DNA from: Clostridia bacterium
GTDB lineage: Bacteria > Bacillota > Clostridia > Christensenellales > Aristaeellaceae
Direction: 5' to 3'
Assembly (NCBI GenBank): GCA_017396845.1
Contig: JAFQKQ010000089.1
Location: 1-40,611, forward strand
Length of the DNA: 40,611 nucleotides
In this document: positions 3,014-32,693 of the stretch, one piece after another
How the letters are laid out: each line of letters begins with the position of its first letter
How positions within the stretch are numbered: position 1 is the first letter of the stretch
Translations under genes and position numbers: made by a program
The notes under the pieces: generated by a model
What the model was told of the DNA's origin: nothing
Database searches by the model: none
What the model saw: only the letters and a program-made list of their open reading frames with translations

Positions 3014-3823
3014 CTACTTTTTCGCCAAAAACCCATACATATGGATAATGTTCATATCCTCCGGCATATCCAGGCCGTGCGAGCCGCAGTCGCCGTCGAT
3101 TTCGTGGCAGCCGTGGTCGGGGCAGAAGGCGTGCATGGTGTTGTGATGTGGCCATTTTTTCGCAATTTGTTCTTCGAAGGCTTTATAGGTTTCTGCGTTA
3201 TGCTTGATTTCATTAAGTGAAGCTTCGGCTTCGGGGCCTTGCTTGTGCATGGTGTAGTCGTAGCTTTTGTTGTATACTACGATCAAGTCGTATTCGTCCT
3301 TATCGATCAGCTCTCTTGCTTTTTCATTCACTTCGTCCATCGTTTCATATATATAGTAATCCATTTCGCGGTTTAAGAATATGCAGGAAATGCTGTCTTT
3401 GGCGGTTGATACGATCGCGCATTTTTTGCCGTTTTTGATCAGCACGTCGAACACGGTTTCCACCGTCAACACCGGCTTTTCGTATTTTTGAATGCCGTGC
3501 TTATCGGGCATTACACCGGAATAGATGGACGCAAAGCACACGGGCGTGACAGACGGCATAACGGACAGCATAGGAATCTGCAGGTCGGATGCGCAGACGG
3601 CGTCCGTAAAGAGAGCGGTATATTTCTGATACAACCACAGGGCGATCGCGTCGGGGTTAAACATGAACACGCGGTCCGCTTTTTCGCCGCGCAGAATTTT
3701 GTTCATTTTTTCAAGCACGATATCGTTTGCGGGATGCATTTCATGGTTCGGCTCGATTCCAAAGGCAGTCAATATGGTTGCGGCGACGGAGGTAATCGGT
3801 ATGCTGTTATTTACATTTGCCAT
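3014..3823 (-). CDS. Alkaline-phosphatase-superfamily hydrolase
   Basis: A 269-residue protein related to type I phosphodiesterases and phosphopentomutase-like enzymes. PSVTPVCFASIYSGVMPDKH (about residues 90-109) looks like the nucleophile region with Thr, and YDLIVVYNKSYDYTMH (about 179-194) and CPDHGCHEIDGDCGSHGL (about 235-252) hold the Asp/His metal ligands. It is short for the superfamily (usually 400 or more), so the cap domain is missing. No signal peptide is seen, so it is probably cytoplasmic. It is the last gene of the operon with the MMPL protein and the URO-D protein, 11 bases after the latter. The substrate is unknown; the context suggests a small phosphorylated or phosphonate-type molecule, which is inference only. 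Confidence 0.7.
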   Translation of the reverse strand: MANVNNSIPITSVAATILTAFGIEPNHEMHPANDIVLEKMNKILRGEKADRVFMFNPDAIALWLYQKYTALFTDAVCASDLQIPMLSVMPSVTPVCFASIYSGVMPDKHGIQKYEKPVLTVETVFDVLIKNGKKCAIVSTAKDSISCIFLNREMDYYIYETMDEVNEKARELIDKDEYDLIVVYNKSYDYTMHKQGPEAEASLNEIKHNAETYKAFEEQIAKKWPHHNTMHAFCPDHGCHEIDGDCGSHGLDMPEDMNIIHMYGFLAKK

Positions 3824-3834
3824 ATATGTATCTC

Positions 3835-5061
3835 CTATCTTTCCGTTTCTTCAATTGCGATCTCGGAAAATCTTGTAAGTCTCTCAGGATGATAGCGAAC
3901 GGTGGACACATCCTTCAAAATCATTTCAAGCTTCACATCGTTTTTCTTAGCCGCATCAACCGTCCTTCTGATATCGCGGCGAACAGCGTCTTCGTCGAAG
4001 GTATCCATTGCGAGGTACGCAGGCGTAGGCTTATTGCTCATGATGAAGCCCTTCGGAAGCTTTTCGCTGAATTTCTCTCTGTCGCTCCAGGGGCTGCAGG
4101 ATATCTTTTTCACGTTCGGAAGCTTTACGATTTTTTCGAGTCTGTCGTCCAGCCGGTCGCAGCAGCCGTAATAAATGCTTCCAAAGCGGCAAAACACCTT
4201 TTCCATATAGTCGCATTCGAATTCCTGCGTGATTCTGGGCGACACGGAGGTAAACAACTGCGCAAGGCCGAACGCCCACGTGTCCTTTGAAGTTACAAAC
4301 TCTTTCTCCTTGTCGTCCGGGTGGTAGGTATGCGAGCAGTGGCAGTAATGACCGTAAGAATCGAACGCACCCAGAGCATTCAGCTGATCGATCTGGTCAA
4401 GATACCCTTTCACCATCTTTTCCATGACGGCGTGCATCATTTCCGGGCGATCGATCAACTCGATATAGCACGCTTCAACGCCCATCCAGTATGCAATCGT
4501 ATCCCATGCACCCAGATGCATGATCATGCCCGTCATGCGGACAGGAAGAATTCCCGCGAAAATTTCTTCCGCCGTCTGGCGGATTTCCTTTTCTTTCCGA
4601 ACGTCCAGCGTAATCACGGGCGACTTGATCTTTTCTACGTCCTCTTCCTCCTGAATGAGGTTCGTCATTCTCTGCGCCGCAACATCGCCGGTTTCATCCG
4701 TATACAGCCTTTCTACTTCCGCCTCCAGCCCCCAGCCGGTAGACGAAATCGGGCGCGGAAGCTTGATATATTCATCCAGCACCATATCCGCCGGAAAATG
4801 CTTCCATTTATATATTTCCTTGCGCATCCAGTCTTCAACGCCTCTGAAATAGGGATCCTCCACCTGTAAATTCAGGCTTCCATCTGTATTCAGTTCATTC
4901 CACGGAAGCTGATCGATCAAAATCATCGGTCGCTCGGACGCGAGCGAATTGTGTCTGAGCCACATTTCCTTTTTCTTTTTTTGTATCGGAAGGGACGCAA
5001 GGTGCGCATACTCAGAAGCAAGGGTTTTTAGGATCGAAACATCATTTTTCGAAAGCGCCAT
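3835..5061 (-). CDS. URO-D family protein (uroporphyrinogen decarboxylase-like methyltransferase), copy 1
   Basis: A 408-residue member of the URO-D/MtaA/CmuA superfamily. It has LPWNELN near residue 52, HYCHCSH at 238-244, and YYGCCD at 297-302 leading into a barrel strand with SPWSDR. The His/Cys clusters are the usual zinc site of the methylcobamide:thiol methyltransferase branch rather than true heme synthesis. A paralogue (410 residues, same motifs and length) lies at 32848-34080. No corrinoid protein is encoded nearby, so the methyl carrier would have to be elsewhere. The start overlaps the end of the MMPL gene by 20 bases, so the genes are translationally linked. The exact substrate cannot be read from the sequence. 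Confidence 0.75.
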   Translation of the reverse strand: MALSKNDVSILKTLASEYAHLASLPIQKKKKEMWLRHNSLASERPMILIDQLPWNELNTDGSLNLQVEDPYFRGVEDWMRKEIYKWKHFPADMVLDEYIKLPRPISSTGWGLEAEVERLYTDETGDVAAQRMTNLIQEEEDVEKIKSPVITLDVRKEKEIRQTAEEIFAGILPVRMTGMIMHLGAWDTIAYWMGVEACYIELIDRPEMMHAVMEKMVKGYLDQIDQLNALGAFDSYGHYCHCSHTYHPDDKEKEFVTSKDTWAFGLAQLFTSVSPRITQEFECDYMEKVFCRFGSIYYGCCDRLDDRLEKIVKLPNVKKISCSPWSDREKFSEKLPKGFIMSNKPTPAYLAMDTFDEDAVRRDIRRTVDAAKKNDVKLEMILKDVSTVRYHPERLTRFSEIAIEETER

Positions 5062-8999: not shown

Positions 9000-11159
9000 A
9001 TGTCCATCACCTATTCTGACGGAATTATCCATATTCAGGGAAAAAGCACCAGCCTATGCCTGATGGTGCATCCCGAGTTCGGCCTTTTAAATCTCTATTG
9101 GGGCGCACGCCTTCCGGACGGAAACGTAGCCTATGTCCTTGACGGCATTACAGACGGCGCATCCTTCGATTTGAAATCCTCCCGCATGCCTTATGACCTC
9201 CCTTTGCGGGGCAGCGGCTATTATCAAACGCCTGCTCTCTGCGCCGTCAACAATATGGGAAACGACCTTGTAAAGCTTTCCTATGTAAGCCATGAAATTT
9301 ATCGCGGCAAAAAGCATATCCCGGGACTTCCACAGGTGTATACGGAAGAAGGCGACGGCGCTCAGTCCGCAGAAATTCTGCTTACGGACGCGCTCACCGG
9401 CCTCACTGCATGCGTAACGTATACCCTGATCCCGGAAACGGATGTAATCACCCGCAGCATGAAAGTGATAAACGCGGGAAACAGCCCGGTAACGCTTACG
9501 CACATGATGTCCGCAAGCATCCCCCTGTACGGCTCGGATTACGATGTAATCAACTTAAGCGGCGCATGGGCAAGAGAAAGGCATATTAACCGGACGCCCC
9601 TTGCGCACTACGGCGTTCGAATCGAAAGCCAGCGCGGCGCGTCCGGTCACGAACAAAACCCGTTTATCGCACTTTCGGAAAAAACGGCGACCGAGCACAC
9701 CGGAAGCGTATGGGCAATGGCGCTGGTGTATTCCGGTTCGTTCCTTGCCGCATGCGACGTAAACAACTTTCATACCGCCCGTCTGTCAATCGGCTTGAAT
9801 CCCGAAACCTGCTCATGGAAGCTTATGCCGAGCGAAGAATTCCAGACCCCGGAAGCAGTGCTCGTGTATTCGGGCGGCGGTTTTAACGGCATGTCTCAGA
9901 AATTCCATTCCACCATTCGCCGCCGCATTGTCCGCGGCTATTGGCGCGATGAGGTTCGCCCGATTCTGATCAACAACTGGGAAGCCACCTATTTCAACTT
10001 TAATGAAGAGAAGATTGAAAAAATCGCTCGGAAAGCGGCGAATCTCGGCATTGAACTGTTCGTACTGGATGACGGATGGTTTGGACGCAGGAACACGGAC
10101 AATTGCTCCCTCGGCGACTGGGTGGTGAATACGGACAAGCTGCCCGGCGGCATCAGGGGAATTGCGGAAAAGATCAACGGCATGGGCATGAAATTCGGCC
10201 TCTGGTTCGAGCCGGAAATGGTTTCGCCCGACAGCGATCTCTACCGCGCCCATCCCGACTGGTGCCTGCACGCGGAAGGACGCAGCCGCACCGAAGCCAG
10301 GCAGCAGCTGATTCTGAATCTTTCCAGACGCGAAGTGCAGGACTACATCATATCCGCCGTTTCCGCTGTGCTAAGGGATGCGCCCATCGACTATGTAAAA
10401 TGGGACATGAACCGGAACATGACGGAGTATTTCTCCTACGGGCGCGAAGCCGACCGACAGATGGAGACGCAGCACAGGTATATGCTCGGCCTCTACCGCG
10501 TGATGGACGAAATCACCTCCGCTTTCCCGAAGGTGCTGTTTGAAGGCTGCTCGGGCGGCGGCGGAAGATTCGATATGGGCATGCTGTATTATATGCCTCA
10601 ATTCTGGACGAGCGACGACACGGATCCGGTCGAGCGCTTGAAAATACAGTACGGCACAAGCTTCGTATACCCTGCCAGCGCCATGGGTGCGCACGTCAGC
10701 GCCAGCCCCAACCACCAGACGTTCAGAAATACATCCGTAAAAATGCGCGCGGACGTCGCGCTGGGCGGCAACTTCGGCTTTGAGCTCGATTTGAATACGC
10801 TGACGGATGAAGAAACCGCCTCCGTAAAGGAATCCATTGAGTTTGTCAAAAAGGTGAGAAAAACGCTTCAAACCGGCACATTCATCCGGCTGGAAAGCCC
10901 GTTTGAAGGCAACTACGCCGCATGGGAATTCGTATCGGAGGATCAAAGCACCGTAATTCTGGCCGCCTACAGAAGACTCACCGCGCCGAACCCCTGCATG
11001 AAGAAAATCTTCCTGAAATCCCTCGATGAAAACTCACAATACATAAACGAGCAAACCGGCAAAACCTACTCCGGCGCCGCCCTCATGCACGCAGGCATCC
11101 TCTTCCCCGACACAAGACGCGATTATCAGAGCATGATCCAATCGTTCAGAAAAGCCTAA
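9000..11159 (+). CDS. GH36 alpha-galactosidase
   Basis: A 719-residue cytoplasmic enzyme of glycoside hydrolase family 36, releasing terminal alpha-galactose from raffinose-type sugars. It has the N-terminal beta-sandwich, then the barrel with WEATYFNFNEEKI, LDDGWFGRRNTD and FGLWFEPEMVSPDSDLY. YVKWDMNRN carries the nucleophile (Asp469), and the acid/base Asp lies in WTSDDTDPVERL (539-540). The C-terminal beta domain is complete. Length is normal (about 720-740), and there is no signal peptide. CGGAGG lies 8 bases before the ATG. No sugar transporter gene adjoins it. It is probably cotranscribed with the HAD and PAP2 genes; a terminator follows. Confidence 0.92.
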   Translation: MSITYSDGIIHIQGKSTSLCLMVHPEFGLLNLYWGARLPDGNVAYVLDGITDGASFDLKSSRMPYDLPLRGSGYYQTPALCAVNNMGNDLVKLSYVSHEIYRGKKHIPGLPQVYTEEGDGAQSAEILLTDALTGLTACVTYTLIPETDVITRSMKVINAGNSPVTLTHMMSASIPLYGSDYDVINLSGAWARERHINRTPLAHYGVRIESQRGASGHEQNPFIALSEKTATEHTGSVWAMALVYSGSFLAACDVNNFHTARLSIGLNPETCSWKLMPSEEFQTPEAVLVYSGGGFNGMSQKFHSTIRRRIVRGYWRDEVRPILINNWEATYFNFNEEKIEKIARKAANLGIELFVLDDGWFGRRNTDNCSLGDWVVNTDKLPGGIRGIAEKINGMGMKFGLWFEPEMVSPDSDLYRAHPDWCLHAEGRSRTEARQQLILNLSRREVQDYIISAVSAVLRDAPIDYVKWDMNRNMTEYFSYGREADRQMETQHRYMLGLYRVMDEITSAFPKVLFEGCSGGGGRFDMGMLYYMPQFWTSDDTDPVERLKIQYGTSFVYPASAMGAHVSASPNHQTFRNTSVKMRADVALGGNFGFELDLNTLTDEETASVKESIEFVKKVRKTLQTGTFIRLESPFEGNYAAWEFVSEDQSTVILAAYRRLTAPNPCMKKIFLKSLDENSQYINEQTGKTYSGAALMHAGILFPDTRRDYQSMIQSFRKA

Positions 11160-25183: not shown

Positions 25184-25212
25184 TTGAAAACATCTGTAGA
25201 CTATAGTATAAT
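25184..25212 (+). promoter_or_regulatory. Promoter of the radical SAM peptide cassette
   Basis: TTGAAA (25184-25189), 17 bases, TATAAT (25207-25212). The expected start near 25219 lies about 30 bases before the degraded first unit; there is no terminator before 31781, so it could drive the whole cassette. Confidence 0.75.
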
Positions 25213-25250
25213 ATTGGGTATAAAGGATCGAAAACAATACGACTTCCAAT

Positions 25251-25465
25251 ATGAGCATTATACCGGCGATCGAACGGAATTCCCGGATAATAGTTCGTTT
25301 CTTCACATGCTTGCAAAGATACGCATTGAATCCGCGCTTAAAGAGCGCTTTCGGGCAACGTCTTTGAACCCGATAAAAATACCCCCTTCACCGCCAGGTC
25401 TTTATGCCGCTTCCAATCCCGATACGGATATGGATGATCTTATACAAAAGCCGGTCGTTCGCCGA
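25251..25465 (+). pseudogene. Decayed copy of the small membrane protein (unit 1)
   Basis: It begins with ATGAGC, as in the two intact paralogues, but the frame breaks; in the shifted frame it ends with SNPDTDMDDLIQKPVV, matching SHPDMDVDDIIKTLVV of the 26006 gene. The paralogue's TGA stop is CGA here (25463-25465), and the flanking DNA continues to match (for example GAATACGC after it). The two membrane helices are missing. I take it for a remnant of a third copy; it would be missed by gene callers or called as an unrelated ORF of 114 residues. Confidence 0.55.
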
Positions 25466-25599
25466 ATACGCCGCTTAGTCTTACAAATCCATTTCTTTAA
25501 AGGAGGCATACCCATATGAATATAAATCCGCGCACCTTTCGTCAGGTATGTGCAATGGTTGCATGCAATCAGCTGAACCGCTATATTACAGGCATCAGC
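25402..25599 (+). repeat. Duplicated unit, copy 1 (membrane-protein 3' end plus peptide 5' end)
   Basis: This segment matches 26379-26580 over the end of the small membrane protein gene and the first 28 codons of the peptide gene. Shared blocks include TATGCCG, GTCGTTC, GAATACGC and ATGAATATAAA.CCG. Divergence is substantial, so the duplication is old. Confidence 0.6.
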
Positions 25600-25905
25600 G
25601 ACAAGGATATGGAAACCGTATATAAACACCTGCTCAAAAATCCGAAAAATACGGCAGGCGTTATCAATCAGCATGTATATCTGTCGGATGAAACAGGCAA
25701 CCAGACCCCAGCTTTTACATTTGAGGAATCCCAGCGCAGGATTAGTTGCGATCTGATACTGCTTTCAACCAACGCTGTGGAAGTTCGCGGAATGGCGTCA
25801 TCCAATCCGTGGAATCAGGATGTGAGCGGGTCGGGATGCACTTCCTGCGGCGGCTCCAGAAATAATAACAAAAATAATAACAACAACAATAACAACAACG
25901 GCTGA
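25516..25905 (+). CDS. Candidate precursor peptide A with CxxCGG core and Asn-rich tail
   Basis: A 129-residue protein. Residues 1-28 (MNINPRTFRQVCAMVAC and following NQLNRYITGIS) form a leader-like region shared with peptide B. The last about 35 residues are GSGCTSCGGS plus a run of Asn interrupted by one Lys and ending in Gly. A middle part (about residues 29-95) is hydrophilic. AAAGGAGG lies 10 bases before the ATG. Two radical SAM genes lie downstream on the same strand, and further copies of this tail occur at 26600 and 29830, which supports a modified-peptide (RiPP) precursor. No leader-cleaving protease is seen near. I do not recognise the family by name. Confidence 0.65.
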   Translation: MNINPRTFRQVCAMVACNQLNRYITGISDKDMETVYKHLLKNPKNTAGVINQHVYLSDETGNQTPAFTFEESQRRISCDLILLSTNAVEVRGMASSNPWNQDVSGSGCTSCGGSRNNNKNNNNNNNNNG

Positions 25906-26005
25906 CGCTTAAAATACGCAGGAAACAGCATTCGGCATGGCGATTCGGAGCACCGGCAAGAAGCCGTTTATCCTACCGATCATTGAAAGCGAGGCAACTC
26001 ATATA

Positions 26006-26440
26006 ATGAGCGATATTGGCGCAAACGAGCCGTCCTATACAACGAAAGATCTTCGTTTTGAACTTGTTGGAAAAAGCTATATCAAAAATATGCTCATGGA
26101 ACGTCATCAAGCGATGTTTCCGGACCGTTCGAGAATAAAGCTGATTTTGGCGAGCAAAAAGTATCGTAAAAAGTTCAGTGCCTTTAGCTGGATTTTTCTT
26201 GCGCTCTTCCTGATTATACTGATCATCGGAGTTGTGTTCCTTTGCATGGATGATCCGTTCGTCACCGGCATAGGCACAGCGTTCTTTCTCTTTGGCTTTC
26301 CTATATCGCTGATCACCGCGATCATCATGCTGATTGTTCATGCAGTCAGAATGAGACCCATCCGCCTTCTGGTGAATTATGCCGTCTCCCATCCCGATAT
26401 GGATGTCGACGATATCATAAAAACGCTGGTCGTTCACTGA
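26006..26440 (+). CDS. Small two-helix membrane protein, copy 1 (HPDM tail)
   Basis: A 144-residue protein with a soluble N-terminal part of about 50 residues, two membrane helices (around 56-80 and 87-110) and a C-terminal tail NYAVSHPDMDVDDIIKTLV. The 26664 gene has the same plan (VIYAMEHPDMTIDAIIDEVV), though identity elsewhere is low. I start at ATG 26006, which aligns with the paralogue's MS-; the longer frame from 25937 lacks a ribosome site. GCGAGG lies before the start. Function unknown; position between peptide genes suggests a role in peptide handling or immunity, which is inference. Confidence 0.7.
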   Translation: MSDIGANEPSYTTKDLRFELVGKSYIKNMLMERHQAMFPDRSRIKLILASKKYRKKFSAFSWIFLALFLIILIIGVVFLCMDDPFVTGIGTAFFLFGFPISLITAIIMLIVHAVRMRPIRLLVNYAVSHPDMDVDDIIKTLVVH

Positions 26441-26580
26441 ATACGCAGTTTCCGGCGCCGAATCATAATAAACTTATGTCAAAAGAGTCTGCCCCAATGA
26501 ATATAAAGCCGTGCACCTGCCGGCAGGCATGCGCGCTCTGCGCATGCAATGTCCTGAACGGATGTATCTTAGGCATTAGC
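26379..26580 (+). repeat. Duplicated unit, copy 2
   Basis: Counterpart of 25402-25599. In this copy the membrane protein's stop codon is intact (TGA at 26438-26440), while the peptide gene downstream is truncated. Confidence 0.6.
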
Positions 26581-26661
26581 GGCGAAGATACGGATGGCTT
26601 TCCGTCTGCCTGCGGCAATAACAGCAGCAACAGCCGACGCTCAAAATATAGGAGGAAATGA
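26497..26661 (+). CDS. Peptide B: short, Cys-rich relative of peptide A
   Basis: A 54-residue peptide aligning with the first 28 residues of peptide A, then jumping to a remnant of the Asn-rich tail (ACGNNSSNS). Seven cysteines (6, 8, 12, 15, 17, 23, 39): two shared with A (12 and 17) and the rest extra. The ancestral TGA stop is CGA here, so the frame reads through 8 more codons into RRSKYRRK. The ribosome site is poor (AAAGAG) and the middle is missing, so this may be a decaying copy; the Cys enrichment argues against simple random decay. An ATG at 26476 in the same frame is an alternative start. Confidence 0.5.
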   Translation: MNIKPCTCRQACALCACNVLNGCILGISGEDTDGFPSACGNNSSNSRRSKYRRK

Positions 26662-26663
26662 AT

Positions 26664-27068
26664 ATGAGTTATGATGATTCTGTCCACAATTACGACACTC
26701 GCTATCAGGCAGCCGCTTTAATGAAGGAAGCTTTTGAAAAGCAATTATATGAAAAAGGCTTTCAGCCGGAAAATTTGAGAGTAAAGGCGCAGTATTTGGC
26801 AAAAACGAATAGCAGCGGCTCATCAGGCATGTCTAAATTGGTGTTTGCTCTGATATTCATCATCGGCGGCCTGTTGCTTATGATATCAGGCGAAACATTT
26901 CTGGGGGTTTTCGGAACAATGCTGCTGATTGTTGGATGCATTATGTTCATAAAGACTGTAACCAAAAATTCGAAGTCGACAATCGCGATGAATTCGCTTG
27001 TGATATACGCAATGGAACATCCGGATATGACCATCGATGCAATTATTGATGAGGTGGTCGGATGCTGA
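26664..27068 (+). CDS. Small two-helix membrane protein, copy 2 (HPDM tail)
   Basis: A 134-residue protein: hydrophilic N-terminus with YDTRYQAAALMKEAFEKQLY (alpha-helical), two membrane helices (about residues 56-76 and 79-98) and the tail YAMEHPDMTIDAIIDEVVGC. It is a paralogue of the 26006 gene. AGGAGG (26649-26656) lies 8 bases before the ATG at 26664; the ATG at 26658 would be too close. The stop overlaps the start of the LRR gene (ATGCTGA), so the two are translationally coupled. I recognise no named family. Confidence 0.75.
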   Translation: MSYDDSVHNYDTRYQAAALMKEAFEKQLYEKGFQPENLRVKAQYLAKTNSSGSSGMSKLVFALIFIIGGLLLMISGETFLGVFGTMLLIVGCIMFIKTVTKNSKSTIAMNSLVIYAMEHPDMTIDAIIDEVVGC

Positions 27069-27904
27069 AGAAAAGCTTGTACCTTCTGATCTGTATCACG
27101 ATGATCGTATTGTTCTGCGCCTGCTCGACATCCGGCGGAAACGAAGGCGCGGATCAAAAAGCATATACCGACGTCACCGTTTTTGAAGGCATAAAGTATT
27201 CAAAAATCGGCGGGGAGCTATGGCTGGTCGGTTATGAAAAAGACCTGCCCAAGAATCTCACTCTCTCCATTCCCGAAAACGTCGGCGGCGTTCCCGTCGT
27301 CGGCATTGAGAAAAACGCGCTTCGCGGTTTGAGTCAGCTGACAGAGCTCTACGTTCCCGGCAGCGTATCTGTAATCCGGGGCGGCGCGTTTGCCGAGTGC
27401 AAAAACCTTAACAAGGTTACGCTTTCAGAGGGAATTCATACGTTAGAGGGCGAAGTATTCATGAAATGCGCGTCTCTAAAGTCCATCGCCATTCCGACTA
27501 CCGTTACGGTCGTCCGCGGAAACGCATTTCAGGACTGCGCTTCCCTTGAAAACGTATCTCTCCACGACGGAATTACCGAAATCCACGCCTATGCATTTCA
27601 GAACTGCGCATCCCTTACCCATATCGTACTCCCCTCAGGCATTACGGAAATCCGGGCGAATACATTTGAGAACTGCATAAGGCTCCGGTCGATCAGCATA
27701 CCGGCAGGTGTTTGGCGCATAGCCGCGCACGCATTCAGAGGCTGCAATGCGCTGTCAAACGTGGCTGCGCCCGATTCCCTGCGCGAAATCGGCAGCTCCG
27801 CATTCAGAGAATGCAAAAGCCTTAAAAGCATCAGCCTCCCGAGAAATGTATCCGTCGACGAGCGTGCGTTTAAGAACAGTCCTACAAAAATCAGCTACCG
27901 CTGA
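27062..27904 (+). CDS. BspA-type leucine-rich repeat lipoprotein
   Basis: A 280-residue protein beginning with a lipoprotein-like signal (MLKKSLYLLICITMIVLFCAC; candidate lipidated Cys21, preceded by FCA, so the box is not textbook). From about residue 75 on it has six or so LRR_5 (BspA/Treponema pallidum) repeats of the form AF-x-x-C-x-x-L-x-x-(I/V)-x-(I/L)P, with conserved Cys pattern (FAECKNL, FMKCASL, FQDCASL, FQNCASL, FENCIRL, FRGCNAL, FRECKSL). It is most likely a surface binding protein. Start overlaps the preceding gene and its stop is 19 bases before the radical SAM gene, so it belongs to the same transcript. Confidence 0.8.
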   Translation: MLKKSLYLLICITMIVLFCACSTSGGNEGADQKAYTDVTVFEGIKYSKIGGELWLVGYEKDLPKNLTLSIPENVGGVPVVGIEKNALRGLSQLTELYVPGSVSVIRGGAFAECKNLNKVTLSEGIHTLEGEVFMKCASLKSIAIPTTVTVVRGNAFQDCASLENVSLHDGITEIHAYAFQNCASLTHIVLPSGITEIRANTFENCIRLRSISIPAGVWRIAAHAFRGCNALSNVAAPDSLREIGSSAFRECKSLKSISLPRNVSVDERAFKNSPTKISYR

Positions 27905-27923
27905 CAGACAGGGGATCGACTTC

Positions 27924-29672
27924 ATGAGCCAGTTTATCCATTTGCTTTACGTTCCCACCATGAACTGCAATCTGAAATGCAGGTATTGCTATCTGGGCGA
28001 TATGACCGGGGAGAATGCATGCACAAAGGGATATCTTGAAACGCTTGAGTATGCGGTAGAAAAGTTTCGTTCCGCGCACGTGATCCCCTTTAATATATCG
28101 CTGCACGGCGGTGAAGTGACCACCCTATCGCCGGATGCGTTCAGATCCCTCGTGGCATACATTTCCAAATATTACGAATTGAACCGCAGCCTGCTTCAGG
28201 AAAACGGCTTCAAGGTGGGTACGCCGCACATCAAAACCAATTTGTATCAGATCGACAAGCATTTGGACGCGATCAAGGAATTTGACGTAAGCATCAGCGG
28301 AAGTCTCGATCTTCCGCTGTCTCTGCACGAAAAATACCGCGTGACCAAGGGCGGAAAGGGCACGCTCGATACGATCATGAAAAACATCGAGCTGCTGCGT
28401 GCGCTTCCGAACAAAAAAAAGGTCTCCGCGACCATTTTTAAAGAGCACTTCGACCATTTGGATGAGATTGTTCATGACATCCGCTTCCTGGCCGATCACA
28501 CCTGTCTTGATATGAACGCGTTCAATTTCATGATAGGCTTTGCCTACGGAAACGAAGTCGATTACGAAGTACAGCTTACGCCCTTATCCGAAACGGATCA
28601 GGAAAAACTGTACGAGCGCATGCACGAGGCATACGAAGGAAGCGATCTTGAAAAGGGATTGAACGAGAGCTGGTTTGCGGAATTCACGCCCGCCTATTGC
28701 ACAAACTGCGACAACTGCGGCGAAAAGTTTTTCCTGCTGGAGCGAAACGGCGATATATATTCCTGCGTGCGCGGGCAGGGACACCCGGAGTTTTTCTACG
28801 GCAACATTTACGAGGATACCGTTGAAACCATCCTCGCAAATGCAAAAACGAAGATATTCATACAGCATAACGCCGTCGGCTTTCCCGAGGAATGCGGAAA
28901 ATGCGAATATCTGCACCTGTGCAAAACCGGCTGTCCTTTTGTGAAAAGCGTATATAAATCCGGAAAATCGTATACCTGCCTTCTTCAGAAAAAGCTCTAT
29001 AAGAACGGAACCTACGAAGAAATCAAACCGAATTTCACCTATTGGTATCTTAAAAAAAACCATCCGGAGATCGCAAACGACTACCGGCAGGAAATTATCC
29101 CGGAGAATTCGCTTAAGGATCTCATCCGCCGCGATAAAAAGCTTCAGATGGTCTATGACAAGACAGCCTTCGTATTATCGGTAAACGGGGTCGATTATCC
29201 TCTGGAATCTCAGATTCTTAAGGACAAACGCGATATTATCTACATAAACCCCGATACCGCGCTTACGCTGTACATCAAAAAGGAAATCATGGACGCACTG
29301 GCGGATTATCCCGTATACAACACGCTCTATATCCAGCTGCTTTCCGGAGATACGGTTGTATACGGAGACGAGCAGCGCGAAAAACAGGCGCATGTCATGA
29401 CTCATCAGATTTACAAATACGCGCTTGATATGGATTCTACGGATCGCGAAGGCTTTTACAGAGTCGATATGGCGCCGCTGATCCGGCTGTATGCAAACAG
29501 CATATCCAAGGTTTCGCCCAACAACCTGTTTGTCACAACCGGCGCGCTTCGCGATTACCATTACTGGAAGCAGAAGAATAACGGTTTCTATCACATAAAC
29601 GCGCTGAATCTGCCGTTTCAGAACATCGAGTTTATGTACTTTGACATGCACGATGATGATTTGAACGAATAA
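27924..29672 (+). CDS. Radical SAM/SPASM peptide-maturase-like enzyme with long C-terminal extension
   Basis: A 582-residue protein. VPTMNCNLKCRYCYLGD carries the [4Fe-4S] triad C15/C19/C22. The SPASM region is complete: CDNCGEKFFLLERNG, then DIYSC, and CGKCEYLHLCKTGC (Cx2Cx5Cx3C) with a final Cys in YTCLL. The last about 150 residues (from NYRQEIIPENSL on) match no domain I know. Such enzymes install thioether or C-C bonds in peptides. GGGGAT precedes the ATG by about 10 bases. Upstream and downstream peptide genes with CxxCGG motifs are plausible substrates. It may belong with the CXXX-repeat-target maturase group, but I cannot confirm that from memory. Confidence 0.8.
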   Translation: MSQFIHLLYVPTMNCNLKCRYCYLGDMTGENACTKGYLETLEYAVEKFRSAHVIPFNISLHGGEVTTLSPDAFRSLVAYISKYYELNRSLLQENGFKVGTPHIKTNLYQIDKHLDAIKEFDVSISGSLDLPLSLHEKYRVTKGGKGTLDTIMKNIELLRALPNKKKVSATIFKEHFDHLDEIVHDIRFLADHTCLDMNAFNFMIGFAYGNEVDYEVQLTPLSETDQEKLYERMHEAYEGSDLEKGLNESWFAEFTPAYCTNCDNCGEKFFLLERNGDIYSCVRGQGHPEFFYGNIYEDTVETILANAKTKIFIQHNAVGFPEECGKCEYLHLCKTGCPFVKSVYKSGKSYTCLLQKKLYKNGTYEEIKPNFTYWYLKKNHPEIANDYRQEIIPENSLKDLIRRDKKLQMVYDKTAFVLSVNGVDYPLESQILKDKRDIIYINPDTALTLYIKKEIMDALADYPVYNTLYIQLLSGDTVVYGDEQREKQAHVMTHQIYKYALDMDSTDREGFYRVDMAPLIRLYANSISKVSPNNLFVTTGALRDYHYWKQKNNGFYHINALNLPFQNIEFMYFDMHDDDLNE

Positions 29673-29753
29673 TGCGCCCTGCGCCTTTCGGGAAGCGTGC
29701 GCATCGGCAGCCGGCGAGCCGCTTACACCGTTCATTTCAAACATCAGAAATGA

Positions 29754-29909
29754 GAATTCCGAAAAATATCCGACCGCCTGACGGCAATCCCCAAAAGATA
29801 TGCACCCGAATCAAATCAGCAGAACGATTCTTCTTTGAGCTGCGGCTGCGCATCCTGCGGCGGCTCAGGCAATAATAACAATAATAGCAGCAACAATAAT
29901 ATCGGCTGA
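29754..29909 (+). pseudogene. Remnant of a third precursor peptide (C-terminal part)
   Basis: An open frame without a start codon (preceded by a TGA at 29751) encodes a tail like that of peptide A: APESNQQNDSSLSCGCASCGGS, here quoted in parts as APESNQQND and SSLSCGCASCGGS, then an Asn/Ser run ending in Ile-Gly. The core motif GC(T/A)SCGGS and the sequence GGCTGACGC around the stop match peptide A. The leader region is absent. It lies between the first radical SAM gene and the potassium channel gene. It could be translated only by a non-standard start or a frameshift from the ATG at 29750. Confidence 0.55.
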
Positions 29910-29924
29910 CGCAGGGAGAATGCC

Positions 29925-30638
29925 ATGAGAAAGCGAATCTATGAAATCGTTCATTGCTATGAGTATGATCGTGTAAGCCGCCTGTATAAATGGGTAATGA
30001 TCGCTTTCATCGCGCTGAGTCTGCTGCCGTTGGCATACAAGGAGCCCCAGCCGATTTTCCGAACTCTGGACGGCATATGCCTTTGTGTATTCTCCGTCGA
30101 CTACCTGCTTCGCTGGATCAGCGCCGATTACAGAATGGACGCCTGCGGAAAACGCGCTTTTCTTATCTATCCGCTGCGCTTGATATCCATTATCGATCTA
30201 TTGTCCGTATTGGCGCTCGTGTTTTCCTGTCTGGATCTGCCTCAATCGCTGTCGATTGCGCAGACGATGAAGGCTTTCAGAATCATCCGCATCTTCCGGT
30301 ATTCAAAAAACATGCGCATGATCATCGATATATTGAAGCGCTCCAAAAAGCCGCTGACGGCAGTAGCAAGTCTGGCCGGAGGGTATATTGTTATTTCGGC
30401 GCTCATCATATTCAATGTCGAGCCGGATTCCTTCGCCAATTTCTATGAAGCACTCTATTGGGCTACCATTTCTTTAACGACCGTCGGATACGGTGATATC
30501 TATCCGGTTTCCGATATCGGGCGCACCGTTGCAATGATTTCCGCTTTTTTCGGTCTGGCAATCGTCGCGCTGCCGTCCGGTATCATAACGGCGGAATACC
30601 TGAAAATAATCAATTCCGGCGATGACAAATCTTCTTAA
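29925..30638 (+). CDS. Voltage-gated potassium channel homologue
   Basis: A 237-residue protein with S1-S6 helices: S1 WVMIAFIALSLLPLA, S2 ICLCVFSVDYLLRWI, S4-like basic helix MKAFRIIRIFRYSKNMRMI (residues 115-133), then the pore with the filter TTVGYGD at 185-191 and S6. This is the KvAP-type plan (six helices, one pore), with a short cytoplasmic end and no RCK domain. AGGGAGA precedes the ATG; the peptide remnant stop is 15 bases upstream. Its presence between peptide and radical SAM genes is unexpected; a role in immunity or as a peptide target is possible but purely inferred. Confidence 0.85.
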   Translation: MRKRIYEIVHCYEYDRVSRLYKWVMIAFIALSLLPLAYKEPQPIFRTLDGICLCVFSVDYLLRWISADYRMDACGKRAFLIYPLRLISIIDLLSVLALVFSCLDLPQSLSIAQTMKAFRIIRIFRYSKNMRMIIDILKRSKKPLTAVASLAGGYIVISALIIFNVEPDSFANFYEALYWATISLTTVGYGDIYPVSDIGRTVAMISAFFGLAIVALPSGIITAEYLKIINSGDDKSS

Positions 30639-30658
30639 ACGAGAAGGAAACAGAACTT

Positions 30659-31702
30659 ATGGCAAATGCAGATTGGCTGGTATTACAGTTTCATATTACA
30701 GGAAGATGCAATCTTCAGTGCAAGCATTGCTATAGGACAGACGGCGGCGTACAGCCGCTTTCTTTTGACGATGTTATCGGTACGCTTGAACAGTTCAAGG
30801 CTCTGATAAAGCGCCGCGCATCAGAAACAAATTCCGCCGAATGGGGACATGTGAATATCACCGGCGGCGAGCCGTTTATGCGTGAGGACATGCCGCTTCT
30901 TCTCGAATACTTTGAAAAAAACAAAAGCGTCTTAGGCTTCGGCGTGCTTACAAACGGAAGCTTTATAACGGAAGATATGATAGGCTTGCTGAAAAAAGCG
31001 GGCGTGTCCTTTGTGCAGCTGAGTCTGGACGGAAACCGGGCGCTTCACGATGAACTGCGCGCAAAGGGCGATTACCGCCGCACGCTGAAGACCGCAGCCC
31101 TCCTTGAAAAGCGCGGAATCAAAACCTATATCAGCTTCACGGCAAACAGGAAAAACATAAAAGCCCTCCCATCCGCCGCATGGGCGTGCAGGCTGCGCGG
31201 CATAAGCCTGCTCTGGTCCGACCGCCTGGTTCCTATCGGAAACGGTGCAGATATGAAGGAGCTGGCGATCACCCGCGAATATATGCCCGAGTATCTTTCA
31301 ATGCTTAAGAAAGCCGTCGGAACCCGGCTTACGCAAAGGCTGTTTCCAAAAACATTCGTCGCCCGAAACAGGGCAATTCAGTTTTTGGGCTGTACCGACC
31401 CCATCTACACATGCTCTGCCGGAAATCAGCTGATCACCGTAGACGAGTTCGGAAACATTATGCCCTGCCGCAGGATGGGGACCGTATGCGGGGATGTGTT
31501 TTCGTCTTCTCTGGAGGAGATTTACTGCCATCACCCGCTTTTTCTATCCCTCAGAGAATCGGCCGTTCCCGAATCGTGCTACGGCTGCATATACAATCAC
31601 CTGTGCCGCGGAGGCGCAAAATGTCAAACTCTCGCCGCATACGGCCGCCTGAACGAAGCCGATCCCGGCTGTCCGCTGTCAAAAACAGGCGGCGATTTAT
31701 AG
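30659..31702 (+). CDS. Second radical SAM/SPASM enzyme
   Basis: A 347-residue protein. GRCNLQCKHCYR has the CxxxCxxC cluster (C17/C21/C24) and HVNITGGEPFMREDM is the SAM-binding GGE motif. The C-terminal part has CSAGNQLITVDEFG, NIMPC and CYGCIYNHLCRGGAKC, a SPASM-like pattern (Cx2Cx5Cx5C rather than the usual x3 at the end). It starts 20 bases after the K+ channel with AGAAGG 10 bases before the ATG, so it is cotranscribed. Being shorter and without the C-terminal extension, it may serve as the modifying enzyme while the longer one acts as partner, or both modify the peptides; which is unknown. Confidence 0.8.
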   Translation: MANADWLVLQFHITGRCNLQCKHCYRTDGGVQPLSFDDVIGTLEQFKALIKRRASETNSAEWGHVNITGGEPFMREDMPLLLEYFEKNKSVLGFGVLTNGSFITEDMIGLLKKAGVSFVQLSLDGNRALHDELRAKGDYRRTLKTAALLEKRGIKTYISFTANRKNIKALPSAAWACRLRGISLLWSDRLVPIGNGADMKELAITREYMPEYLSMLKKAVGTRLTQRLFPKTFVARNRAIQFLGCTDPIYTCSAGNQLITVDEFGNIMPCRRMGTVCGDVFSSSLEEIYCHHPLFLSLRESAVPESCYGCIYNHLCRGGAKCQTLAAYGRLNEADPGCPLSKTGGDL

Positions 31703-31780
31703 ACGCGCGTCTCCCCGACCGCAGAAACGCCGTCGACTTCAAAAAAGCGCCGCCCCCCTTAATCCGAACCAAAAATCAAT

Positions 31781-31830
31781 CCGGGAGATGCACAGAACGC
31801 TCAATTCTGCACATCTCCCGGATCTTTCTT
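31781..31830. terminator. Bidirectional terminator closing the cassette and pyrH
   Basis: CCGGGAGATG (31781-31790) pairs with CATCTCCCGG (31812-31821), extended by CAGAA/TTCTG across a small internal loop. TCTTTCTTTC follows on the plus strand; T-rich sequence also follows on the minus strand. It separates the convergent second radical SAM gene and pyrH. Confidence 0.75.
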
Positions 31831-31880: not shown

Positions 31881-32585
31881 TCACGCATGCACTCTCGTTC
31901 CGATATCCTCGCCCATGGCAGCCTTGATGATGTTTTCAAGGTCGTCCATATTGAACACGCGAATTTCGGGAATTTTCTGCTCCTGGCAAAGGAGGAAAGC
32001 CGAGGTATCCATTACCTTCAGGCGCTTCTCCACTGCTTCCTGATAGGTGACTTCTGTAAGAAGCTTCGCGTCGGGGTTTGTTCTCGGATCCTTATCGTAT
32101 ACGCCGTCTACTGTAGTTCCCTTGAACACTGCGTCCGCGTCGAGTTCCGCCGCTCTTAAGGCCGCGCAGGTATCCGTAGTGAAATAGGGATTTCCGGTGC
32201 CGCCGGCCAAAAGCGCCACGCAGCCGTCGTTCATCGCGGCAAGTACGGCGTCCCTGGTGTAAAGGCGGGCAAACCGATTCATTTCCTGCGCGGTAAACAC
32301 CTGCGCCTTTCCGCCCATGCGGACAATTGCGTCAGACACGCAAAGAGCGTTGATAACGGTTGCAAGCATGCCCATCTGATCGGCATTTGCGCCGTTCATT
32401 TCATTCGTAAACCTTCCGCGCCAGATGTTGCCGCCGCCCATGACCACGCCGACCTGAACGCCGGTCTTAGAAAGCCGGAGGATCATATCCGCCACCTTGT
32501 CCACGCGCTCGGGATCAAATGTTCCCTTGCCGCTTACGGGGGAGAGCGTTTCGCCGCTGAGCTTAAGAATGATGCGCTTATACAT
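31881..32585 (-). CDS. pyrH: UMP kinase (PyrH)
   Basis: A 234-residue enzyme making UDP from UMP. It has the bacterial UMP kinase motifs KLSGETL, VGVVMGGGNIWRGR, NADQMGMLATVINAL and LLAGGTGNPYFTTDTCAALRA (UMP-binding); the latter is given here as LLAGGTGNPYF and TTDTCAALRA. Start at Met28 of the longest frame, because the CAGG site lies just before it and the upstream residues are unlike PyrH. It is alone here: no rpsB, tsf or frr, the usual neighbours, is present, suggesting it was relocated. Promoter at 32665-32693. Confidence 0.93.
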   Translation of the reverse strand: MYKRIILKLSGETLSPVSGKGTFDPERVDKVADMILRLSKTGVQVGVVMGGGNIWRGRFTNEMNGANADQMGMLATVINALCVSDAIVRMGGKAQVFTAQEMNRFARLYTRDAVLAAMNDGCVALLAGGTGNPYFTTDTCAALRAAELDADAVFKGTTVDGVYDKDPRTNPDAKLLTEVTYQEAVEKRLKVMDTSAFLLCQEQKIPEIRVFNMDDLENIIKAAMGEDIGTRVHA

Positions 32586-32664
32586 GATACCTGCCCCTTT
32601 CCAAAAAGCAGACGGCTTCGCCGCCTGATAAGCTTTCCATGCAATACGGTGGATTTTCTCAGGC

Positions 32665-32693
32665 ATTGTACCATATTTTACCGCCGTTTACAA
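32665..32693 (-). promoter_or_regulatory. Promoter of pyrH
   Basis: Minus strand TTGTAA (32693-32688), 17 bases, TACAAT (32670-32665), about 80 bases before the pyrH start. Confidence 0.6.

Follow-up and report, generated by a model that had tools for sequence, protein, structure and literature searches.

A rare radical SAM enzyme family associated with asparagine-run protein C-termini in bacterial loci and phages

PapB, CteB and SkfB are SPASM-type radical S-adenosylmethionine (SAM) enzymes encoded adjoining the gene of a small substrate, and a comparable arrangement is found in a 40,611-nucleotide stretch of DNA (the window) from a Clostridia bacterium (assembly GCA_017396845.1, contig JAFQKQ010000089.1), where two radical SAM enzymes, here named rSAM1 and rSAM2, are encoded with small proteins, membrane proteins, a BspA-type leucine-rich repeat (LRR) protein and a K+ channel. 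The locus differs from these systems in that tail cysteines are missing in 9 of the 11 loci in which rSAM1 was followed, namely the window and ten relatives (L034, L046, L047+L048, L058-L063 and L065). It is likewise distinct from the anaerobic sulfatase maturases (anSME; 4k36-4k39), the target site of which is (C/S)x(P/A)xR: this site is found in none of the 11 peptides, and rSAM1 is under the family cut-off and has an extra C-terminal domain.

What the rSAM1 family accompanies is a run of asparagines at the C-terminus of a protein encoded nearby, a small protein in bacteria and a tail fibre in phages, and this coupling of tail and enzyme is a result worth a test. As judged from sequence, the family probably acts on this Ser/Gly-rich, Asn-run tail.

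A conserved gene block and its asparagine-tailed small protein

In all ten relatives an LRR homologue precedes rSAM1, and the order LRR gene, rSAM1, small-protein gene is retained throughout, including L047+L048, in which the rSAM1 gene is divided between two contig ends. In most relatives, the membrane part, encoded separately in the window, is apparently contained within the LRR gene (a call made by eye, and for L034 by alignment). L065, from another family, has the order membrane protein, LRR, rSAM1, peptide, K+ channel, one extra gene and rSAM2. As the locus is conserved in other genomes it is more than a chance assembly, and the original prediction, made from the window alone, was right to treat these genes as one conserved system. 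In two relatives the peptide is followed by a zinc-ribbon, apparently membrane-bound protein of 351 and 359 residues, respectively (L046:6488-7540 and L048:7454-8530, both on the - strand).

The small protein carries a P-x-T-Y motif near its start and is predicted by AlphaFold2 to be folded to about residue 91, the remainder being disordered. With a leave-one-out profile in which the Asn runs were masked, the member left out was recovered in 10 of the 11 loci, at E-values of 3.1e-7 or lower; pepA, the intact peptide of the window, reached 7e-12, and L061 was missed at 0.29. The folded domain was found a single time per genome, adjoining rSAM1, in all ten carrier genomes searched; these all belong to the domain model and match by construction, so that the informative part is the lack of a second copy. 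It was not found in G597, the single same-genus genome without rSAM1. A search of viral_contigs with pepA gave no relative, and its predicted model matched nothing in the PDB at E 0.001.

The Asn tail is found on all ten complete peptides, L061 being left out because its contig stops after ...FDGGSSNN. These tails are rich in Gly and Ser, have a longest Asn run of 8-20, and end in Gly, Ala or Ser in nine cases and in Arg in one. Of the 803 open reading frames in these loci that reach 60 residues, ten have at least eight Asn in their last 25 residues, and they are exactly the ten tails. AAT and AAC are mixed in every run (10/10), indicating that the amino acid itself is conserved, and DNA slippage as the sole cause of the run was rejected on the same ground. 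An aromatic residue, Ser or Cys often stands just before the run, and the peptide tails have in common neither a Cys nor an aromatic in a constant position. Cysteines within the last 45 residues are confined to the window and L065 (2 of 11 peptides, the L061 tail being cut), on which basis the Cys motif was rejected as a common signature. The motif had been taken to place the locus among the sactipeptide or ranthipeptide types in general, which is not supported, the Asn tail being present in 10/10 complete peptides; equally, the expectation that homologues of the enzymes would be accompanied by such peptides is borne out for the Asn tail and fails for the Cys motif.

In rSAM1 itself, the CxxxCxxC cysteines (C15, C19 and C22) and those of the SPASM region, a seven-cysteine pattern (C265, C281, C324, C327, C333, C337 and C352), are present in 11/11 loci, as are C194 and C259. 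Its NCBIfam scores against the respective cut-offs are 112/450 bits for DynA, the best, 101.1/349.45 for anSME, 87.7/340 for PapB and 46/350 for the CXXX-repeat family, and among the best 25 NCBIfam matches both rSAM1 and rSAM2 lie below the cut-off of every maturase family. Most of the top 50 BFVD matches of the rSAM1 model carry the name of a radical SAM or Fe-S protein, with identities of 10-20%, and CteB matches its fold. The C-terminal domain, compared with PDB sequences by sequence match only, gave nothing significant (best E 0.25).

The rSAM1 family is rare and patchy. A scan of genome_contigs with rSAM1 recovered one true orthologue, L034 (57%). The full-length protein matched in 114 of 200 genomes of the order, and among those matches listed, besides the window's own, identities were 22-36%, mostly over the shared core. 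For the whole-genome searches the extra C-terminal domain was used as a profile, in overlapping draws; where the window's own genome, or G200 and G1225, came up in a draw, they are part of the count. It matched in 7 of 300 genomes of the window's family, 3 of 397 of L034's family, 3 of 391 of the class (one being G1015, treated as a duplicate of G457, with which it shares contig number and length, and counted once with it), 1 of 21 and 1 of 28 around G1225, and 2 of 3 in the genus; in the phylum (299) and order (347) draws it matched the window's own genome only. The rSAM1 of the window is nearer to that of L065, from another family (67%), than to that of L059, from its own genus (60%), which suggests lateral transfer; this is argued from identities, and the tree leaves most forks open.

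Phage relatives of rSAM1

A tblastn search of plasmids and phages with rSAM1 turned up a single relative of nearly full length (35.7% over 98%, E 2e-98), which occurs both in a record of Campylobacter coli and in the Campylobacter phage CAM-P21. Its gene lies in a Mu-like phage tail region and follows, at a distance of two genes, a PF12571 tail fibre whose sequence closes with ...APSGSTNNNNY. In scans of viral_contigs the enzyme family was found on 13 distinct contigs, 12 of them similar to the Campylobacter phage (no host is named for the contigs). In all 12 the fibre terminates in a run of 2-5 Asn, followed by one further residue at most (seven have NNNNY, three NNF, one NNS and one NNNNN), and 11 of the 12 fibres have no Cys in their last 12 residues. 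The Asn tail is thus the feature that phage relatives have in common with the bacterial loci. Domain scans covered three fibres: that of L069 (6307-7338) has the Phage_tail_fib N-terminal domain (PF12571, E 3.5e-40), that of L086 matches tail-fibre PHROGs, and that of L076 has one PHROG match, to a family without known function. A viral_contigs search with the rSAM1 two-row alignment returned no relative.

The coupling was examined in a control set of 28 phage loci, collected via baseplate J and thus blind to the enzyme. A fibre ending in a run of two or more Asn occupies the same position in 7/7 loci with the enzyme and in 0/18 without it, which by exact count is a 1 in 480,700 event (2e-6), uncorrected for relatedness; as many of these phages are close kin, the true weight of the count is lower. 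Three of the 28 could not be scored, the contigs of L099 and L113 ending inside the fibre and L120 having another arrangement. For the fibres of L118, which is in two pieces, and of L071, which lacks its N-terminal side through a cut, the score was taken from the C-terminal piece as found. In L111 (IMGVR_UViG_647000224_000001) the enzyme gene is in two reading frames, and the fibre still ends Asn-Asn-Phe.

The 18 enzyme-less loci have a gene of 164-170 residues between the fibre and a DUF1353 gene, with DUF4376 in the one examined (L095). Across these phages (L069, L070-L079, L086, L087 and L094-L119) a cassette at the fibre is swapped: one form combines a fibre end with this 164-170-residue gene, and the alternative combines an Asn-tailed fibre end with a gene of ~211 residues (phrog_10241 in one examined) and the radical SAM gene. 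The enzyme-linked fibre ends can be sorted into three or four groups (L070; L075 and L076; L077, L078, L079 and L087; L086), and between groups there are some matches, weak or short.

Outside this set, one report (PMC2853527) gives 11 and 12 radical SAM proteins for Campylobacter phages CP220 and CPt10; both are absent from the 7 records matched by the phage enzyme. CC_R7 (PMC12398825) contributes no further information.

The gene run of the window and the second enzyme

As originally described, the named genes are present in the window as one run on the + strand (25516-31702), comprising pepA, two membrane-protein genes, and the LRR, rSAM1, K+ channel and rSAM2 genes. The features of the region are as follows.

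25184-25212, + strand: promoter-like site TTGAAA-17-TATAAT, 11/12 matches
25402-25476, + strand: decayed duplicate of the last part of mem1 (direct repeat D4, 79%; reading frames compared)
25516-25905, + strand: pepA (peptide A), 129 residues, in which a predicted folded domain (1-91) precedes a disordered tail with the terminus GCTSCGGSRNNNKNNNNNNNNNG; suggested as substrate
25937-26440, + strand: mem1, membrane protein of 167 residues, aligned with mem2 (26%) and, in the LRR protein of L034, with the N-terminal part (17%)
26476-26661 (open reading frame; homology from 26497), + strand: pepB, which repeats residues 1-34 of pepA and is otherwise truncated, with four additional Cys and a short stretch of Asn/Ser (direct repeat D2, 72%; codon comparison)
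26658-27068, + strand: mem2, membrane protein of 136 residues
27062-27904, + strand: BspA-type LRR protein (LRR_5; PF13306, E 6.7e-51)
27924-29672, + strand: rSAM1, radical SAM enzyme of 582 residues with full SPASM region and extra C-terminal domain, ~366-582 (PF04055 and PF13186 above cut-off)
about 29706-29909, + strand: pepC, the remaining C-terminal half of a decayed pepA-like gene, tail CGCASCGGSGNNNNNSSNNNIG, with one internal TGA and no in-frame ATG
29925-30638, + strand: K+ channel, voltage-gated type, TTVGYGD (PF00520, E 2.1e-24; 58% orthologue in L065)
30659-31702, + strand: rSAM2, radical SAM/SPASM enzyme of 347 residues (53% orthologue in L065)
31778-31824: terminator-like hairpin of 20 pairs, T tail reported on the - strand, between the convergent ends of the run and the next gene

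The run had also been credited with its own promoter and a closing terminator: the promoter-like site and the hairpin both exist, but the former belongs to a class of sites no more frequent here than in shuffled sequence (9 in the region, shuffle mean 10.2). The convergent gene at the end of the run (31881-32666, - strand) resembles pyrH (uridylate kinase) by eye. By the same kind of inspection, the LRR protein starts with a signal/lipobox-like sequence, and no signal sequence was recognised in pepA.

A search of the window's own genome with the peptide recovered pepA, pepB and pepC, of which pepA is the intact copy. After residues 1-34 of pepA, pepB jumps to the Asn/Ser run; over those 34 residues (26497-26598) it has gained four Cys, with 8, 9 and 13 changes at the three codon positions. 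PepC occupies the usual peptide place of the relatives, after rSAM1, and the intact peptide of the window sits upstream instead. The statement that related tails occur twice more is therefore true of the DNA, but both copies look incomplete, and the idea of three equivalent peptide substrates was rejected since pepB appears truncated and pepC decayed. Together with the mem1 remnant, this single intact peptide and its two damaged copies indicate that the window holds a rearranged copy of the locus.

Within the flanks covered for the eleven loci, the K+ channel and rSAM2 were found in the window and L065 only. Tail cysteines follow rSAM2 exactly, being present in 2/2 loci with it and 0/9 without (1 in 55 by count; 2/2 against 0/8, or 1 in 45, when L061, the downstream side of which is missing, is left out). 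This co-occurrence fits the use of the tail cysteines by rSAM2, and is no proof of it. The NCBIfam scores of rSAM2 against cut-off are 124.1/395 bits for TIGR04053, 117/350 for SbtM and 109.7/400 for ACGX, and among solved chains its profile is best on CteB (5wgg) and SkfB. In plasmids, 235 records match rSAM2, the best 6 of 235 at 29% identity. Between the K+ channel and rSAM2, L065 encodes a 267-residue protein with a weak DUF4190 match (10353-11156), a position at which the window has none.

Proposed action, alternatives and known systems

In the explanation proposed here, the folded N-terminal part of pepA would present its disordered tail to rSAM1, and the tail would be altered by 5'-deoxyadenosyl-radical chemistry, likeliest at Asn or at the Ser, Gly or Cys just before the run. 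Relatives of the core enzyme act at side-chain carbons of their target, and hence the Asn beta-carbons, or those pre-run residues, would be the likeliest sites. Candidate reactions include epimerisation, crosslinking and desaturation, each of which would fit the sequence, and alternating D-Asn or Asn-Asn bonds are conceivable as products. The modified small protein would work with the membrane-anchored LRR protein, and in the window and L065 rSAM2 may crosslink Cys ahead of the Asn run, alongside the K+ channel; in the Campylobacter-type Mu-like phages, the rSAM1 family would modify the tail fibre at its C-terminal tip. The pairing with an LRR protein points to a surface role in bacteria too. 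As a whole, the picture of a rare, scattered radical SAM family that puts a new modification on C-terminal Asn runs, at the phage fibre tip and on a bacterial small protein serving a membrane-anchored LRR system, one branch of which has a K+ channel and a Cys-directed radical enzyme, is an evenly balanced proposition.

Several observations weigh against the proposed action on the tail. The phages are largely close kin, and the fibre-end groups share stretches (L070/L076, 32% over 59 residues). The 96.8-kb viral contig L091 is a real exception, as it has the enzyme, 40% alike in the C-terminal domain, and no Asn-run partner among the open reading frames listed. The rSAM1 proteins of the window and L065 are mutual best matches (67%), with L058, which has neither channel nor rSAM2, close behind, so that the link between Cys tail, rSAM2 and K+ channel, seen in two loci, may be a single historical event. 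No leader-removal or export gene and no protease was recognised in the shared block (library scans of the window; relatives by eye), so that a surface role is an inference. Finally, the Asn run could be a docking tag. Farther downstream in L048 there are ABC-transporter-like genes (by eye). In L091, a 172-residue protein two genes upstream of the enzyme (3495-4013) has a Cys-rich end resembling the Cys motif of the window peptides, and a viral_contigs search with the L091 enzyme returned itself only.

The docking-tag objection can be extended to a reading in which the run is only a tag or linker and the target lies elsewhere, in the LRR protein, the distal domain of the fibre, or the aromatic residue or Ser, Gly or Cys that precede the run. 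In SPASM enzymes recognition is often the task of a separate part, such pre-run residues are frequent, and L091 combines a Cys-rich neighbour with the lack of a run; against this, the peptide tails share no Cys and no fixed-place aromatic, whereas the run is common to the fibre ends of three or four groups, some of which share other stretches too, and the reading is unlikely, if worth keeping in view. Rather less credible is a classical sactipeptide or ranthipeptide system, in which both enzymes would make thioethers from the CxxCGG cysteines. The exact coincidence of tail Cys with rSAM2, and the CteB and SkfB likenesses of rSAM2 and, for CteB, of the rSAM1 fold, speak for it; the 9 of 11 rSAM1-side peptides (among them the cut L061) whose last 45 residues are free of Cys, the 11 of 12 enzyme-linked fibres with none in the last 12, and the maturase cut-offs that both enzymes miss speak against it, such that thioether formation is disfavoured for rSAM1 and possible for rSAM2. 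That a low-complexity tail stands by chance beside an unrelated radical SAM gene is so improbable as to be dismissed, as no point was found in its support, the family being rare (1/299 genomes in the phylum draw, the window's own), and conservation across eleven loci, with the phage presence/absence control, refutes it.

The open literature, in coverage that was not exhaustive, yielded no paper joining radical SAM with polyasparagine, or with leucine-rich repeat and BspA; phage tail fibre, post-translational modification and radical S-adenosylmethionine were not found together; no paper was found on phrog_1802, and none joining cyclophane, asparagine and SPASM. DynA, DarE and GrrM, of cyclophane-type and related systems, include in DynA the best NCBIfam match of rSAM1, which misses the cut-off of 450, and the tails described here differ in having no aromatic at a fixed place. 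TigE (8vpo), from the poly-cyclopropylglycine pathway, is a SPASM enzyme, as here, and its product reportedly contains one altered residue in many copies. The gene set suggests an undescribed way of altering protein ends: if this is true, Asn runs at protein C-termini would be a new substrate class for radical SAM chemistry, and a phage would finish its fibre tip by radical post-translational chemistry. Also close is PHROG 1802, phage radical SAM proteins without assigned function, which rSAM1 (residues 10-571, E 2.7e-43), the phage enzyme (2-585) and the L091 enzyme (4-601) match, the extra domain of rSAM1 alone doing so weakly (E 4.7e-5). It is a broad group, since the core of rSAM2, which has no extra domain, also matches (E 5.9e-28), and for part of it the coupling described here would provide a hypothesis of function.

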